This document shows, piece after piece, positions 34,435 to 40,312 of a DNA stretch of 40,312 nucleotides. The translations under genes and the position numbers were made by a program. The notes under the pieces are model-generated. The model saw nothing but the letters and a program-made list of their open reading frames with translations, was not told the DNA's origin and made no database searches. This DNA is from a virus. The stretch lies in the IMG/VR virus record IMGVR_UViG_3300025141_000247, positions 1 through 40,312 of that record; one strand, given 5' to 3'. How positions within the stretch are numbered: the first letter of the stretch is position 1; each line of letters starts with the position of its first letter.

Positions 34435-37400
34435 ATGTCAGTTGATAAATTTAAGTTTGTATCTCCAGGTGTTTTCATCCATGAAATTGATGAATCAATA
34501 CTTGAGCCCTTGCCAGAGAAGATGGGCCCCCTGGTCATCGGTCGTTTTCAAAAAGGACCAGCTAACAGACCCACTAAAGTAAGCTCATTCAGGGAGTTTG
34601 TTTCTATTTTTGGATATCCTTCTTCTGGCAACTCTTCGGGTGATATATGGCGTACTGGCGAAATGACTGCTCCTACATACGCCGCATATGCCGTACAAGC
34701 TTGGTTAAAAAATAATAGTCCATGCACAGTATACCGCTGCCTGGGCGAGCAGCGCGCCGACGCCGAGCCCGGCACAGATGGAGAATCTGGCTGGTCGACA
34801 ACTAACACTTTTTCAAATGGAACGGGATCTTCAATTGCTAATGCAGGCGGCGCCTATGGTTTATTTATTATGCCTAACCCGGATTTGCAGGATACAACAA
34901 CGACCTCAATTGGAACAGAATATTTACTGATTAGTGGTACTGCTGATTCAGGCGATGCCTGGAATTTCGCCGGCCCCATAAGCGGCACCCTGATGGGTGC
35001 TAATTATTCTTTCTATGTGCCATATGGCGCCGGCGCTGAGCTGGACAAGAATACAACAACAATCCATATTACTAGCTCACACGACGCCGACGGCGTCGCG
35101 GCCTCGCCCGCCGCAGGCCAAATTTTTATTTCTGGTAGTTCCAACTTAGAGTTACAGTCCTCACTAATAGCGGCTATTAATGGTACAGCGGCCGACGACG
35201 TTACCTTTGGCAGCGGCCGCTCCACGGGTGTCCTTGGCATTACTGCCACATCCGGATCCGGGCTGTCGGTTACTCTTACTGCCACAAAAGCGGGTGTCTA
35301 TGGTTCTCAGATTACTATTACTGGCTCCGCGGGTCTCGTGACTCAGGGTGGTACATTGGATGTTGGAGCTGCCACACACAGTCATATCGAAGACAACCCG
35401 AGCTCCGGCGGAACAAATTCATTATTTTCGGCTGGCCCGGAAGCCGCCGGCTCTTGGGCCCTGGCCTTAACCGCCTCCACTGCGGCACCTGTTACCGGCA
35501 CCTTGGCTGCTATTTGGTATGTCAACGCCGGCGCTGTCGTGTTGACAGGAACCCAGCGAAATGGCCAAGCCGCGCAAGGCTGCCATGAACTTATTAAAGG
35601 CACGAATGGCAACTTCACTGCAAAAATCTATTCTTCAGACACAACAGTTGAAAAAGCTGCCACGTTCAATTTTGACAGAGATTCTAACTTCTTCATTAGA
35701 AAAGTTTTCAACACAGATCCCACTAAAATAAACGACGAGGTAACCGTAACAGGGGTTGAACAATACTGGCTAGGCGAAACTTTCGAATCTAATTTAAAGA
35801 GTGCAGAAAATAGCCAACTAAAATCGGATGGAAGTGAACCCAGTAGCACAGGACAACTGGGGGTCATCTTGGCTTTGGACGGAACAACCGCCGGCTCAGG
35901 CTTAAAATGGCACGACCGCGCCGGCGCACTGGAGGGTTTTGCAGCTAAAACCGGTTGGTTCTTCTCGCAAGATTTAAGGGGCACCACATATGCTGATTTC
36001 GATCCAACGAATACGAGCCATGTTTCTGCTTTGTTCAGGTTTGTGGCCTTGGACAGCGGTGAATCAGCGAACAAAGATATTAAAATTTCTATCCAAGACA
36101 TCCAACTACCATCAAGCAACTTTAATGCTTTTGGTACCTTTACAGTTCTCGTTAGATCGGCGTGGGATAGCGACAACGCTCCAGTTATCTTAGAACGCTA
36201 TAGCAACATGAATTTAGATCCAACTTCAACCAACTACATTGCGAAGGTAATTGGAGATAGATATTATACTTTTGACAATACTAATAAGACTCTTCTTGAA
36301 TTAGGGAATTACCCAAATAAATCAAGATATGTTAGAGTTGTAATGAACGAAAATGTTCAGAATGGCGCTGCAAAAGACGGCTGGCTTCCATTTGGTGTTT
36401 ATGGTCCCGTGGTTCCTAAAACTATTGTCGTTAGCTCGGGATCAGCAGTAACTGACGACGCCCTCGATGGCGCGTGGTTCTCCGGCCGAAGCGTGGCCAA
36501 CGCTGTGCCATTCCAGGCCCTGGCCCCCGCCGCGAGCACCCCCTCAGGTGTCCCCACAGCGCTCCAGCTCGACCACGTTTTTAATACCGATGCCGATATA
36601 ACAGCTTCACTAGAATTTCCGACCAGCAGAATGAGAGTATCTTCTTCTGAAGGTGGGCTGGTTCTTGGAAGGAAGGCTTATTTTGGATATCAATCTAACA
36701 TCATTGACACCAAGCGTCACGATGGCACAACCGTTGATCTGTTACGTTCTCGCCCGGCCGCCGCCGCAGCTTCTCCGTTCTCCAAGGGGGACGATAACCA
36801 ATATTCATGGGTTTTCACTCTTGATAACATAGTTCCGTCGGTTGAAGACAGTTCTCATGCTGTACATGTTGTTGGCGGCCGCGCCTCAATGCGTTCTTAT
36901 ACAGCAGTTAGCTCTAGTGACGGTAAAACAACAAAAGAAGTGCTGTTAGCTGGGTATAATAGATTCAACTCGCCTATGTTTGGCGGCCAGGACGGCTTCG
37001 ACATTACTGAGCCGGATCCATTTAGAAATTCGTTCCTTGACGACACACCTGGAGAAAAGACGAATTATGCTTATTACAGTTTGAAGAAGGCCGTTGACAT
37101 GACTGCAGATGCAGAATTTATTGAATATGATCTTGCCTGTATGCCTGGTATAACTAATAGTTCTCTTAATACAGCACTGGTTAACTCGTGCGAAGAGAGG
37201 GGCGACGCTTTGGCGATTGTTGACCTACCGGGTGGTTACACTCCAGCTCACGAAAACCTCTTGGACGAGGCATCTAGACTTGGAACGGTGCAGGCTGTCG
37301 TCGACGCTGCAAACGACCTGGGCCTCAATTCTAGTTATGGCTGCACTTTTTATCCATATGTAATGGTCAGAGATACAATTGATGACTCTGTGCTCTATGT

Positions 37401-37977
37401 GCCTCCTTCAGTTGTCGCTCTCGGTACTTTCTCTAGCTCACAGCGAAAATCAGCTGTTTGGTTCGCACCTGCTGGCTTTACTAGAGGTGGCCTCAGTGAG
37501 GGTAGTGCCGGCCTGCCGGTCCTGGGAGTAAGACAGCGTCTTACTTCTGATGACAGAGACAAGTTATACGAAGCAAATATTAATCCGATTGCCTCTTTCC
37601 CGGCAGAAGGAATTGTTATCTTCGGGCAGAAAACTCTTCAGGTAACGCAGTCGGCCTTGGACAGAATCAATGTACGTAGGCTAATGATTCATGTGAAAAA
37701 AGAGATTTCAAGATTTGCTGCTACTACCTTGTTCGAACAGAATATCACGGCAACCTGGGATAGATTCAAGAATAAAGTCATACCCTTTCTTGAAAGAGTT
37801 AAGGCCGGTAAAGGCCTTACAGACTTCAAGGTGCTATTAGATAGTACTACGACTACACCTGATCTGGTTGATAGAAATATACTCTATGCTAAAATTTACT
37901 TGAAACCAGCACGTGCAATCGAATTTATCGCGCTAGATTTCATTATTACGAAGAGCGGAGCTTCTTTTGATGACTAA
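34435..37977 (+). CDS. 18: Contractile tail sheath protein, gp18-like, enlarged
   Basis: A 1180-residue sheath protein. The N terminus (FVSPGVFIHEIDES, GPLVIGRFQKGPANRP, then AYAVQAWLKNNSPCTVYR) and the C-terminal 300 residues (ALAIVDLPGGYTP, VRDTIDDSVLYVPPS, SSQRKSAVWFAPAGFTRG, then IEFIALDFIITKSG) match sheath proteins of contractile tails. The centre is greatly expanded compared with T4 gp18 (659 residues); residues of about 110-400 are Gly/Thr/Ala-rich beta-type sequence with SSLIAAINGTAADDVTF and LTATKAGVYGSQITITGS, like an inserted surface domain. The sheath contracts to drive the tube through the cell envelope. Confidence 0.93.
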   Translation: MSVDKFKFVSPGVFIHEIDESILEPLPEKMGPLVIGRFQKGPANRPTKVSSFREFVSIFGYPSSGNSSGDIWRTGEMTAPTYAAYAVQAWLKNNSPCTVYRCLGEQRADAEPGTDGESGWSTTNTFSNGTGSSIANAGGAYGLFIMPNPDLQDTTTTSIGTEYLLISGTADSGDAWNFAGPISGTLMGANYSFYVPYGAGAELDKNTTTIHITSSHDADGVAASPAAGQIFISGSSNLELQSSLIAAINGTAADDVTFGSGRSTGVLGITATSGSGLSVTLTATKAGVYGSQITITGSAGLVTQGGTLDVGAATHSHIEDNPSSGGTNSLFSAGPEAAGSWALALTASTAAPVTGTLAAIWYVNAGAVVLTGTQRNGQAAQGCHELIKGTNGNFTAKIYSSDTTVEKAATFNFDRDSNFFIRKVFNTDPTKINDEVTVTGVEQYWLGETFESNLKSAENSQLKSDGSEPSSTGQLGVILALDGTTAGSGLKWHDRAGALEGFAAKTGWFFSQDLRGTTYADFDPTNTSHVSALFRFVALDSGESANKDIKISIQDIQLPSSNFNAFGTFTVLVRSAWDSDNAPVILERYSNMNLDPTSTNYIAKVIGDRYYTFDNTNKTLLELGNYPNKSRYVRVVMNENVQNGAAKDGWLPFGVYGPVVPKTIVVSSGSAVTDDALDGAWFSGRSVANAVPFQALAPAASTPSGVPTALQLDHVFNTDADITASLEFPTSRMRVSSSEGGLVLGRKAYFGYQSNIIDTKRHDGTTVDLLRSRPAAAAASPFSKGDDNQYSWVFTLDNIVPSVEDSSHAVHVVGGRASMRSYTAVSSSDGKTTKEVLLAGYNRFNSPMFGGQDGFDITEPDPFRNSFLDDTPGEKTNYAYYSLKKAVDMTADAEFIEYDLACMPGITNSSLNTALVNSCEERGDALAIVDLPGGYTPAHENLLDEASRLGTVQAVVDAANDLGLNSSYGCTFYPYVMVRDTIDDSVLYVPPSVVALGTFSSSQRKSAVWFAPAGFTRGGLSEGSAGLPVLGVRQRLTSDDRDKLYEANINPIASFPAEGIVIFGQKTLQVTQSALDRINVRRLMIHVKKEISRFAATTLFEQNITATWDRFKNKVIPFLERVKAGKGLTDFKVLLDSTTTTPDLVDRNILYAKIYLKPARAIEFIALDFIITKSGASFDD

Positions 37978-38041: not shown

Positions 38042-38644
38042 ATGCCATTTTTTAACGATACACAGTTCCAGCCGAAAAGAAAATTTCGGTTTTTGGTATC
38101 TTTCTCTAATTTAGGAGAAGATTTAATATATATGGTTACGAAAGCTACGCGTCCATCATTTGAATTGACTAACGTCACTGAGCATAGAATTCTAAATCAC
38201 ACTTTTAAATTCCCGGGTATTGTTAAGTGGAATGATATAGATATCACTTTAATTGATGCCATTGAACCAAATGTGGGATCTAGATTTTATAATGTTTTAA
38301 GAAATATGGGGTACGTTCAACCAGGTGACGCTGATCAATTAGCGGCTGGCATTACAAAACAACAGGCCAACGCAGCCCTCGGCAACGTTGTTATCCGACA
38401 GCTTGATGGAGGCGGTCACGGATCCCCAGATAAGTCAGATTTAAATCCTGTTTCCCTTAGTATCACCTCTGCGGCAAAGGCTCACGAGGAATGGACACTC
38501 AAAAATGCGTTTATAAAAAGTATAAAGTGGGGTGATGTAGACTATACATCTGAAGACATAGTTAATGTAGATATTGGTATTGCATATGATTTTGCTACTT
38601 ATGATATAGTTAATCCCCCTGACGGCTTTGATTATAAGTTATAA
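38042..38644 (+). CDS. 19: Tail tube protein, gp19-like
   Basis: A 200-residue protein with the T4 gp19 pattern: an N-terminal QPKRKFRFLVSF strand, KATRPSFELTNVTEHRILNH, and the central FKFPGIVKWNDIDITLID segment. The C-terminal half closes with IKSIKWGDVDYTSEDIVNVDI and IAYDFATYD, a typical tube-protein ending. Hexamers stack to form the inner tail tube. T4 gp19 has 163 residues. Its position directly after the sheath gene agrees. Ribosome binding site GGGAG. Confidence 0.92.
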   Translation: MPFFNDTQFQPKRKFRFLVSFSNLGEDLIYMVTKATRPSFELTNVTEHRILNHTFKFPGIVKWNDIDITLIDAIEPNVGSRFYNVLRNMGYVQPGDADQLAAGITKQQANAALGNVVIRQLDGGGHGSPDKSDLNPVSLSITSAAKAHEEWTLKNAFIKSIKWGDVDYTSEDIVNVDIGIAYDFATYDIVNPPDGFDYKL

Positions 38645-38678: not shown

Positions 38679-39503
38679 ATGAGAAACAATCAGGATCGAT
38701 TAGGCAAGGCTGCACAAGGCGCGCCACCAACACCAGCATCGCCTAATATGGGTTTTGTTGTACCTACGGAGTTTGTGGAGCTTCCTTCAAGAGGGAAGTT
38801 TTATTCAAGCGAACATCCGCTACACAATCAAGAAACTATTGAAATAAAATTTATGACGGCCAGAGAAGAAGACATTTTGGCCTCTTCGACTTTATTTGAA
38901 AAAGGTCTGGCAATCGAGAGACTTTTACAAAATATTGTTGTCCCGGAGTTAGATACAGCAACCCTACTTATAGGCGACCGTAACGCAATAATGATAGCCG
39001 CCCGGGCATCCGCTTATGGCAATCATTATTTTGCGCAAGTTACATGTAGCGAATGTCTCACAAAGCAAGAGTATGATTTTGACTTAAACAAAATAAGTTA
39101 TAATTTAGACTGTTTTAACCCTGAGTTGCTTGAGGAAAGAAAAATAATCTTTAATGAGGAAGAAGGCCTTTTTGAATATACCTTGCCAAAGTCCGGTGTT
39201 AAAGTTGGCATAAGTCTGTTAACTGGTGCTGAAGAGACTAAGCCAGAATCTGAAAAAGATGATGAGTCAGCAGTAACAAAATCCTTGTTAAGATTCATTG
39301 CTTCTGTCAACGGAAATAAAGAGAGTGAATATATATCACAATTTGTTAATTCAATGCTGGCGTGGGACTCGAAAGAATTGAGGGCGGTATTGCCAACTAT
39401 AGTGCCAAATATAGATCTAAGACAAGAATTTGATTGTGGTTATTGCGCGAATAAAGAAACCATGGAGGTGCCGCTTACTGCGGCGTTTTTTTGGCCTCGA
39501 TGA
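38679..39503 (+). CDS. 26: gp26-like baseplate hub / tail assembly protein with zinc ribbon
   Basis: A 274-residue protein. It has an N-terminal FVELPSRGKFYSSEHPL motif, an EEDILASSTLFEKGLAIERLL helix, and two cysteine pairs: CSEC at about residues 126-129 and CGYC at about 255-258, which can form one zinc ribbon. It ends in FFWPR. This pattern fits the gp26-type baseplate hub subunits of T4-like phages. The gene lies between tube and tape measure, where many other phages have tail assembly chaperones made by programmed frameshift. Its last codons include a T7 run over which the overlapping gp51-like frame could be joined. Confidence 0.72.
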   Translation: MRNNQDRLGKAAQGAPPTPASPNMGFVVPTEFVELPSRGKFYSSEHPLHNQETIEIKFMTAREEDILASSTLFEKGLAIERLLQNIVVPELDTATLLIGDRNAIMIAARASAYGNHYFAQVTCSECLTKQEYDFDLNKISYNLDCFNPELLEERKIIFNEEEGLFEYTLPKSGVKVGISLLTGAEETKPESEKDDESAVTKSLLRFIASVNGNKESEYISQFVNSMLAWDSKELRAVLPTIVPNIDLRQEFDCGYCANKETMEVPLTAAFFWPR

Positions 39504-39672
39504 AGACTATATAGAAAAAATATATGAGCACTTCTTTTATTTGAAATATCACGGCGGCTGGAGCTTCACTGAAGCTTATAATTTGCCTGTTGGGCTTCGA
39601 AACTGGTTTGTAAGGAAATTATCTGATCAGATTAAAAGCGAGAACGAGGCAAGGAAAGAAGCTTATAAATAA
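39430..39672 (+). CDS. 51: gp51-like tail assembly frame without ATG; frameshift extension candidate
   Basis: This frame opens after a stop at 39418-39420 and contains no ATG. The TTG at 39430 and GTG at 39436 lack ribosome binding sites; a CTG at 39478 follows GGAGG at 39464-39468. The protein-like part begins with GLDEDYIEKIYEHFFYLKYH (from 39493) and continues GGWSFTEAYNLPVGLRNWFV, which I read as the short tail-assembly (gp51-type) pattern. A +1 or -2 shift on TTTTTTT at 39486-39492 would fuse it to the gp26-like protein after Phe271, giving about 330 residues. Separate initiation at a rare codon is the alternative. The given start is only the first possible one. Confidence 0.6.
   Translation: MIVVIARIKKPWRCRLLRRFFGLDEDYIEKIYEHFFYLKYHGGWSFTEAYNLPVGLRNWFVRKLSDQIKSENEARKEAYK
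39486..39492 (+). promoter_or_regulatory. T7 run, candidate frameshift site
   Basis: The run reads GCG TTT TTT TGG in the gp26-like frame. Phe-tRNA can re-pair perfectly with TTT after a +1 or -2 slip, placing the ribosome on GGC CTC GAT of the downstream frame. A -1 slip reaches a TAG within about 10 codons and does not join the frames. Confidence 0.5.
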
Positions 39673-39679
39673 AACACCC

Positions 39680-39702
39680 AACCCCTAATCAGGGGTTTTT
39701 TT
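39680..39702 (+). terminator. Rho-independent terminator after gp26/gp51 pair
   Basis: AACCCCT (39680-39686) pairs with AGGGGTT (39691-39697) around an AATC loop, followed by a run of Ts to 39702. It lies 7 bases after the gp51-like stop. Confidence 0.85.
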
Positions 39703-39716
39703 ATTTCCTACAAGAT

Positions 39717-39746: not shown

Positions 39747-40312
39747 ATGGCCGACGAACCAACAGACTCACCAGGAACATCAGAAGGCGCCGGAGATAAA
39801 AAATCTTCGACTCTTGGTGATGCATATAACTGGTTAACTGGTCAGACAGAATTTTCTAAGAAAAATATAGATGAACAAATCGCCCAGGTTGAAAGGCTCA
39901 AAAAAGGGACTGAAGAGTTAACAATTCTAGAGGAAAAAAGGGCTTTAAGCGCTGCAGCTCGTTTGGAGAGCCTAAGGAACGAAGAAGGGATTCAAGGGCT
40001 CATTCAACAGCGTACAGAATCTATTAAGAAAATCAAAGATAGAGAAGATATTATATCAAAAGAAAGAGTAAAAAATCTTCAACAGGAAAAAACGGAACTA
40101 ACGAAAATTCGCGATGCCGCCGGCGGCCTTAGAGGGAAAATTGACGATACACTGACCCTCCGTAAAGCAGAACTGGATCTCCTAAGAAAACAGGCTAACG
40201 AATCAAGGAGGGTCGGAACAGAACTTCAAAGAATAGAAGCTTTATACAGCAGAAAAATAGCCCCCGGCGCAAAGAAAGCTGCCGGAGAAGGATTAAAGTT
40301 CTCTGAACAAGT
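39747..40312 (+). CDS. N-terminal part of coiled-coil tape-measure or hub protein (runs off window)
   Basis: The ATG has ribosome binding site TAGGAG and the frame is open to the last base, giving 188 visible residues. After an unstructured N terminus (MADEPTDSPGTSEGAG) comes a short DAYNWLTGQTEFSKKN segment, then continuous Lys/Glu-rich helical coiled coil to the edge. Long coiled-coil proteins directly after tube and chaperone genes set the tail length (tape measure; T4 gp29 is the hub-linked equivalent). With only the start visible, family assignment is tentative. Confidence 0.65.
   Translation, partial: MADEPTDSPGTSEGAGDKKSSTLGDAYNWLTGQTEFSKKNIDEQIAQVERLKKGTEELTILEEKRALSAAARLESLRNEEGIQGLIQQRTESIKKIKDREDIISKERVKNLQQEKTELTKIRDAAGGLRGKIDDTLTLRKAELDLLRKQANESRRVGTELQRIEALYSRKIAPGAKKAAGEGLKFSEQ

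Follow-up and report, generated by a model that had tools for sequence, protein, structure and literature searches.

Programmed frameshifting in tail chaperone genes is a known class of mechanism; the gpG/gpGT type was treated by Xu, Hendrix and Duda (2004) and later reviewed (PMC5009743). In phage lambda the tape measure is bound by both gpG and gpGT, with the tube protein recruited through the T part of gpGT, and both proteins are gone before completion (PMC5009743). According to the same review, from 2016, G-T frameshifting is widely conserved 'except T4' (PMC5009743). T4 gp51 is required for assembly, is not in the particle and is of unknown function (PMC3004832).

We analysed a window that comprises a whole virus record of 40,312 bases, marked as a T4-type myovirus by Pfam matches for terminase, portal gp20, capsid gp23 and a nuclease/SMC-type protein. 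It is very likely, in our judgement, that a +1 frameshift at the end of the gp26-like gene of this virus yields a short and a long tail assembly chaperone, and that the shift is stimulated by a Shine-Dalgarno-like (SD) element and by hairpins. A search of open-access papers returned no report of a gp26/gp51-type frameshift, which leaves room for one in the subscription literature. Frameshifting in this protein family and in a T4-type phage, a reason why T4 is the exception, and a cassette with a 5' hairpin are all, as far as the literature was searched, undescribed.

The gp26-like gene and its overlapping frame

The features of the locus, in window coordinates, are these:

38042..38644, + strand: tail tube protein (gp19-like), upstream neighbour (phrog_4542, 1.3e-29)
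38679..39503, + strand: gp26-like short form, 274 aa (PF12322 T4_baseplate, E 1e-13; phrog_150, 2.9e-13)
38679..39672, + strand: predicted long form by +1 frameshift, 330 aa, junction TAAFF-GLDED (inferred, with TGGC read as one step)
39464..39469, + strand: Shine-Dalgarno-like GGAGGT, 5' of the shift site (GAG choice at Glu codon -24)
39470..39484, + strand: 5' RNA hairpin GCCGC-UUACU-GCGGC, between GGAGGT and G-TTT-TTT
39486..39492, + strand: T7 slippery run, with putative P-site slip codon 39489-39491 (TTT to TTT, +1) and A-site TGG 39492-39494
39493..39672, + strand: +1-frame extension, 59 aa and stop, DUF6760-like (PF20546, 0.0018, under the curated cut-off)
39501..39503, + strand: stop codon TGA that ends the short form in the 0 frame, 4 codons past the slip codon (from the sequence)
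39508..39526, + strand: weak A/T 3' hairpin UAUAUA / UAUAUG, stronger in relatives
39747..40312, + strand: start of a long coiled-coil ORF, by position the probable tape measure; it ends at the contig edge

The gp26-like protein is a member of the PF12322 family, scoring 52 bits against a cut-off of 24.5 over profile positions 14-219. The extension falls outside DUF6760 (PF20546) as curated, with 18.8 bits against a cut-off of 27. Its frame is open from 39421 to 39672, encodes FGLDEDYIEKIYEHFFYLKYHGGWSF... and, as the sequence-only reading had stated, contains no ATG. That reading had also placed the overlap of the two frames exactly at the T7 run (GCG TTT TTT TGG), and there it lies: the 0 frame reads TTT TTT TGG CCT CGA TGA, and the same stretch minus one T reads TTT TTT GGC CTC GAT (FFGLD). 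A fusion product of about 330 residues starting at 38679 had been expected, and the predicted one has 271 + 59 = 330. Within the window, the predicted tryptic peptide ETMEVPLTAAFFGLDEDYIEK would be diagnostic of the shifted form and ETMEVPLTAAFFWPR of the short form.

The genes on either side agree with the proposed position of the pair between tube and tape-measure genes. Upstream stands the gp19-like gene and downstream the long ORF, whose counterpart in relatives is mostly 500-1150 aa in length and in one relative (L058) matches the tape measure family phrog_167 (2.5e-6); in Flavobacterium phage immuto the downstream gene carries a tape measure annotation. Two other elements of this region can be recorded here. 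The tail sheath protein at 34435-37977 is unusually long (1180 aa), with its sheath-family match limited to the C-terminal quarter, and a terminator-like CCCCTAATCAGGGG followed by seven T occupies 39678-39705, just after the extension stop and upstream of the probable tape measure gene.

Conservation of the junction and alternative readings

We assembled 80 viral loci by protein similarity and, through the alignment, 17 loci from bacterial or archaeal bins and 79 more viral ones; phage records were added. Both parts, each recognised by a profile, are present in 180 loci, and the frame relation is +1 in 179 of these, far beyond chance, and -1 in one. No extension was found in two further loci; the contig stops within the first gene in one and 21 bases past the stop of that gene in the other. 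The loci give 160 distinct junctions, and all but a few divergent or mis-anchored ones have [T/C]TT TGG at the site. Clustering of the junctions at 80% identity gave 132 clusters; the motif anchors 126 of them, and the others are again divergent or mis-anchored sites. The slip codon is TTT in 121 clusters, CTT in five and TTC in none, although in the rest of the gene only 0.76 of the Phe codons are TTT. The 0-frame stop of the homologues likewise follows a few codons past the YTT codon. In Rhodothermus phage RM378 the TTT TTT TGG site is identical, and gene 030 of its annotation corresponds to the last part of the +1 extension. Conservation of the frame relation, the lack of ATG and the T run had been named as the check on the original proposal, and within this group of phages it comes out in its favour on the frame and on YTT TGG, as it does below on downstream starts. 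One apparent exception with its own ATG (L085) was discarded as such, having T TTT TTC and a -1 extension. Separately, a single 305,838-bp contig of a Methylococcaceae MAG carries two gp26-like phage regions (L099 and L100).

Many assemblies and several sequenced isolates of phages share this arrangement, at 160 distinct junctions. That leaves a negligible chance that a sequencing error or a broken gene has disrupted one in-frame gene in this contig, common as errors are in homopolymers. Transcriptional slippage, by which some mRNAs would drop one base on the T run, is in our view highly unlikely. Most members do have seven T, but the arrangement is unchanged at sites with just three or four consecutive T, CTT TGG sites offer no long T run, and selection on the hairpin and the SD-like element points to the ribosome. 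Transcriptional slippage usually needs longer runs.

The sequence-only reading allowed for Phe-tRNA re-pairing on the T run by either +1 or -2. A -2 shift of the kind known from phage Mu would add one Phe, and in most members the T7 run permits re-pairing two bases back. At CTT TGG (17 of the 160 distinct junctions), however, re-pairing at -2 is impossible, whereas the site suits a prfB-like move from CUU to UUU; the TTT-C sites of two divergent relatives (L083 and L102) also fit +1 better. We therefore favour +1 and regard -2 shifting as highly unlikely.

The remaining alternative is internal initiation, in which the extension would be a separate small protein begun inside the gp26-like gene; candidate starts are CTG 39478, which GGAGGT precedes, and the ATG of relatives that have AAT GCG. 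It had been claimed that the early alternative starts lack proper ribosome binding sites. The only TTG and GTG codons of the frame (39430, 39436) lie far upstream of the conserved part, but CTG 39478, a possible start, follows the perfect GGAGGT (39464-39469) with a spacing of 8 nt; this CTG is not conserved. The codon at -11 in SD-bearing clusters is CTG in 21, ATG in 10 and GTG in one. Within 17 nt upstream of the site, the +1 frame has ATG, GTG or TTG in 28 of 126 clusters and CTG in 21 more, the window included, and some internal initiation may occur in these. In the other 77 clusters, however, none of these four codons occurs from -17 to the site, which excludes internal initiation as the conserved mechanism; many clusters have a stop immediately 5' of the site. 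Of these 77, 49 retain the SD-like element, 11 of them with an intervening stop codon in the +1 frame. In eleven clusters even CTG, ATT, ATC and ATA are lacking over the whole stretch between the point where the frame opens and a point beyond the site. Internal initiation also leaves the conservation of YTT TGG unexplained. We think it improbable overall, and the position of CTG 39478 behind GGAGGT means that some may occur in this window. Across homologues we tested and rejected all four of these alternatives as the general mechanism.

Overlapping starts are found in actinobacterial contractile injection systems, where most DUF6760 ORFs have an RTG-A start of this kind, a point in favour of internal initiation. 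Eighteen actinobacterial genomes have DUF6760 over the cut-off. In these another ORF precedes the domain, whose frame is -1/+2 and whose start mostly overlaps; in about two thirds (judged by eye) the preceding ORF has a gp26-like CPxC C-terminus. This frame and start arrangement implies that DUF6760 is usually a separate protein there, and with the other frame, the RTG-A starts and no +1 site we rejected these systems as users of the +1 shift. Many of the 18 loci (L184-L201) share an almost unchanging CTGGGGGAATCGTGACG at the overlap. Two of the 18 (L190 and L193) have CTG where the overlapping start is expected, and in both a -1 shift at a G run is possible.

RNA signals and the proposed +1 shift

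The GGAGGT element is under selection, including in clusters that lack a start: for Glu at -24, 88 clusters use GAG and two use GAA, against a GAG usage of 0.35 elsewhere. In described cases the SD lies 3 nt away in +1 shifting and 9-14 nt away in -1 shifting (PMC5009743). The spacing here is not of the prfB type: GGAGGT ends 19 nt 5' of the slip codon, or about 4 nt if the hairpin is looped out. At 19 nt, action of the SD would require a model that includes the hairpin.

Structure in this spacer is under selection. Folding of the segment from -21 to -4 in the 126 clusters gave a mean MFE of -5.08 kcal/mol, against -0.99 kcal/mol for controls that randomise synonymous codons and do not preserve dinucleotides (z = -34); seven other windows of the gp26-like gene gave z between -2.9 and +0.6. 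A stem of at least 4 bp lies upstream of the slip site in 110 of the 126 clusters, in several registers, and the stems covary. A column-pair test of a stem in fixed register showed little covariation; the signal emerged once registers were allowed to differ and the synonymous-codon null was used. On the 3' side, a structure signal starts near +16 (36-nt window, z = -9 against synonymous codons).

From these patterns we infer the shift itself and its efficiency. Ribosomes on the gp26-like gene would arrive at GCG TTT TTT TGG, and the majority would decode TGG and terminate at TGA, giving the 274-aa short form. Some would slip +1 with the P-site tRNA-Phe on 39489-39491 (UUU to UUU) and read GGC next, giving the 330-aa form. 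The candidate stimulators are the selected GGAGGT and two hairpins, one separating it from the slip site and one on the 3' side. The 5' hairpin could absorb the spacer and so let the SD act near the slip codon, in the manner of bacterial prfB with its 3-nt spacing. Alternatively, it could zip up behind the ribosome and pull it forward, as proposed for T4 gene 60, where a 5' stem loop is thought to pull the mRNA as the ribosome advances (PMC5009743). A hairpin behind the ribosome and the +1 direction fit both models, and a choice between them would be a matter of inference. If true, a +1 cassette in which SD and slip codon are separated by a hairpin would offer a new model for how mRNA elements set the direction of a shift.

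T4-type relatives and known systems

In Kyanoviridae and other T4-type phages we find a -1 version. A T TTT TT(C/T) site near the end of the gp26-like gene, followed by a -1 extension, is present in S-RIM8, S-RIM2, P-SSM3, P-TIM68, HTVC008M and Melnitz, and also in Ochrobactrum OC, Aeromonas 65.2, SRB7757, Paride, Atu_ph07, XacN1 and RAS14; in several of these phages a stop codon just 5' of the site opens the -1 frame. Eighty further viral loci enlarged the set to 92 distinct loci. The -1 relation holds in all 92, and the site is T TTT TTC in 88, with TTT as the last codon in three and TTG in one. The extension profiles of the +1 and -1 groups are homologous (hhalign 94.4%, 8.6e-8). The 61 clusters of the -1 group favour GAG at -15 (43 to 12, usage 0.29) and have strong 3' structure (z = -14) and a weak 5' hairpin; stimulators thus vary with the direction of the shift, as expected from the literature.

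Of the 92 -1 loci, 69 do have a start codon, located before the slip or no more than 14 codons past it. This accounts for the inconsistency of annotated gp51 starts and implies that a separate extension product is also possible in some -1 phages. In the Kyanoviridae loci L208-L221 the annotated gp51 starts are varied ATGs, up to 19 codons within the conserved domain. Pseudomonas phage Cygsa01 (L209, ~2809) and Vibrio phage BX-1 (L222, ~2241) have a TAATG overlap in place of the slip site, with separate coupled starts. Salmonella phage Vi01 (L223, ~2325) has an unannotated gp51-like extension in the -1 frame after gp26, without T TTT TTC or ATG; an ATT start or another shift site is possible there.

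PF12322 matches both T4 gp26 and T4 gp51 across the full profile (8.8e-64 and 3.9e-52), and covers just residues 1-201 of the 249 in gp51. The remainder of gp51 matches phrog_634, which from about position 54 on matches the -1 extension beginning at the slip site; the -1 extension and the gp51 C-terminus align directly (hhalign 97.5%, 8e-12). The +1 extension and the T4 gp51 C-terminus, compared directly with a T4 set of four sequences, gave no significant match (hhalign, 0.28), so the link runs through the -1 group. Judged by these profiles, T4 gp51 is a gp26 paralogue with an extension homologous to the -1-frame segment. The label 'gp51-like' first given to the segment in the window is accordingly right for about 50 C-terminal residues of gp51 and wrong for gp51 as a whole, which carries its extension in frame.

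T4, 44RR, EC-F2 and ZZ1 each have two PF12322 copies, and frameshifting records have one wherever the model matched; the diverged copies of Mel-JY01 and immuto were missed. Aeromonas phage 65.2, which like T4 belongs to Straboviridae, combines one copy with the -1 site. In Acinetobacter phage ZZ1 (L226, 1201-1955), gp51 lies in two frames near a T run (FFF) and is annotated as two overlapping CDS, a break that may be a sequence error or real. In T4 and its close relatives, then, the short form appears to be encoded by gene 26 and the long form by gene 51, two duplicated genes. Most simply, gene duplication would have taken the place of the shift in T4-like phages, in that presumed order. A link between the T4 proteins and the general frameshift system had been offered as a guess; the -1-joined pair in other T4-type families makes it stronger than that.

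We consider it probable that the gp26 frameshift is ancestral to much of the T4-type superfamily, that T4 gp26 and gp51 are its short and long tail assembly chaperones, left by a duplication that replaced the shift, and that the +1 hairpin stimulator is new; this reading places the -1 and +1 shifts at the same homologous point and has the hairpin set the SD distance or push the ribosome forward. If it is true, the T4 exception disappears, the same short and long pair being kept as duplicated genes, and gp51 gains a testable role in tape measure loading and tube recruitment. Annotations of T4-type phages could also be corrected where the extension is missing or its start arbitrary.

The short and long forms would most likely act as chaperones like lambda gpG and gpGT, loading the tape measure protein and bringing the tube subunit; this division of labour we infer by analogy. 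An AF2 model of the short form (pLDDT 86.7) matches the fold of other viral baseplate hub proteins. A fold search of the PDB with it gave nothing significant (HK97 chaperone 2ob9, E=3.4, prob 0.15), and a sequence search of the PDB with the gp26-like protein gave no match.

The window pair shares with lambda gpG/gpGT the short and long forms, the position between tube and tape measure genes and a late shift into a small overlapping segment. Like other pairs of this kind it has a fixed second frame without a conserved start, and a conserved slippery site with stimulators (YTT TGG, 5' hairpin, SD). The direction of such shifts differs among phages (-1, -2, +1). Such pairs are further marked by two products in a fixed ratio, both missing from the virion. 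Unlike lambda gpG and HK97 gp15, the window protein is of the PF12322 family, with no demonstrated homology to them. The haloarchaeal myovirus HSTV-2, whose tail chaperone is very likely made by +1 shifting (PMC5009743), is similar in direction and in tail chaperone position. DUF6760 of actinobacterial contractile injection loci resembles the extension as a small domain, with a weak profile match, that overlaps the preceding ORF. Bacterial prfB has in common with our site a CUU-U or UUU-U slip in the P site and an upstream SD-like element, and one clade here has CTT TGG. The prfB site, however, is CUU UGA, with a stop codon in the A site and the SD 3 nt upstream, whereas here a sense codon, UGG, stands in the A site, the SD is separated from the slip codon by a hairpin, and no autoregulation is expected. 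T4 gp26 and gp51, known as hub assembly chaperones, are of the same PF12322 family as the window pair, and the extension of gp51 is homologous to the -1 extension of its relatives; T4 would make its short and long forms from two unshifted genes, and the virus of the window from a single gene and a shift.
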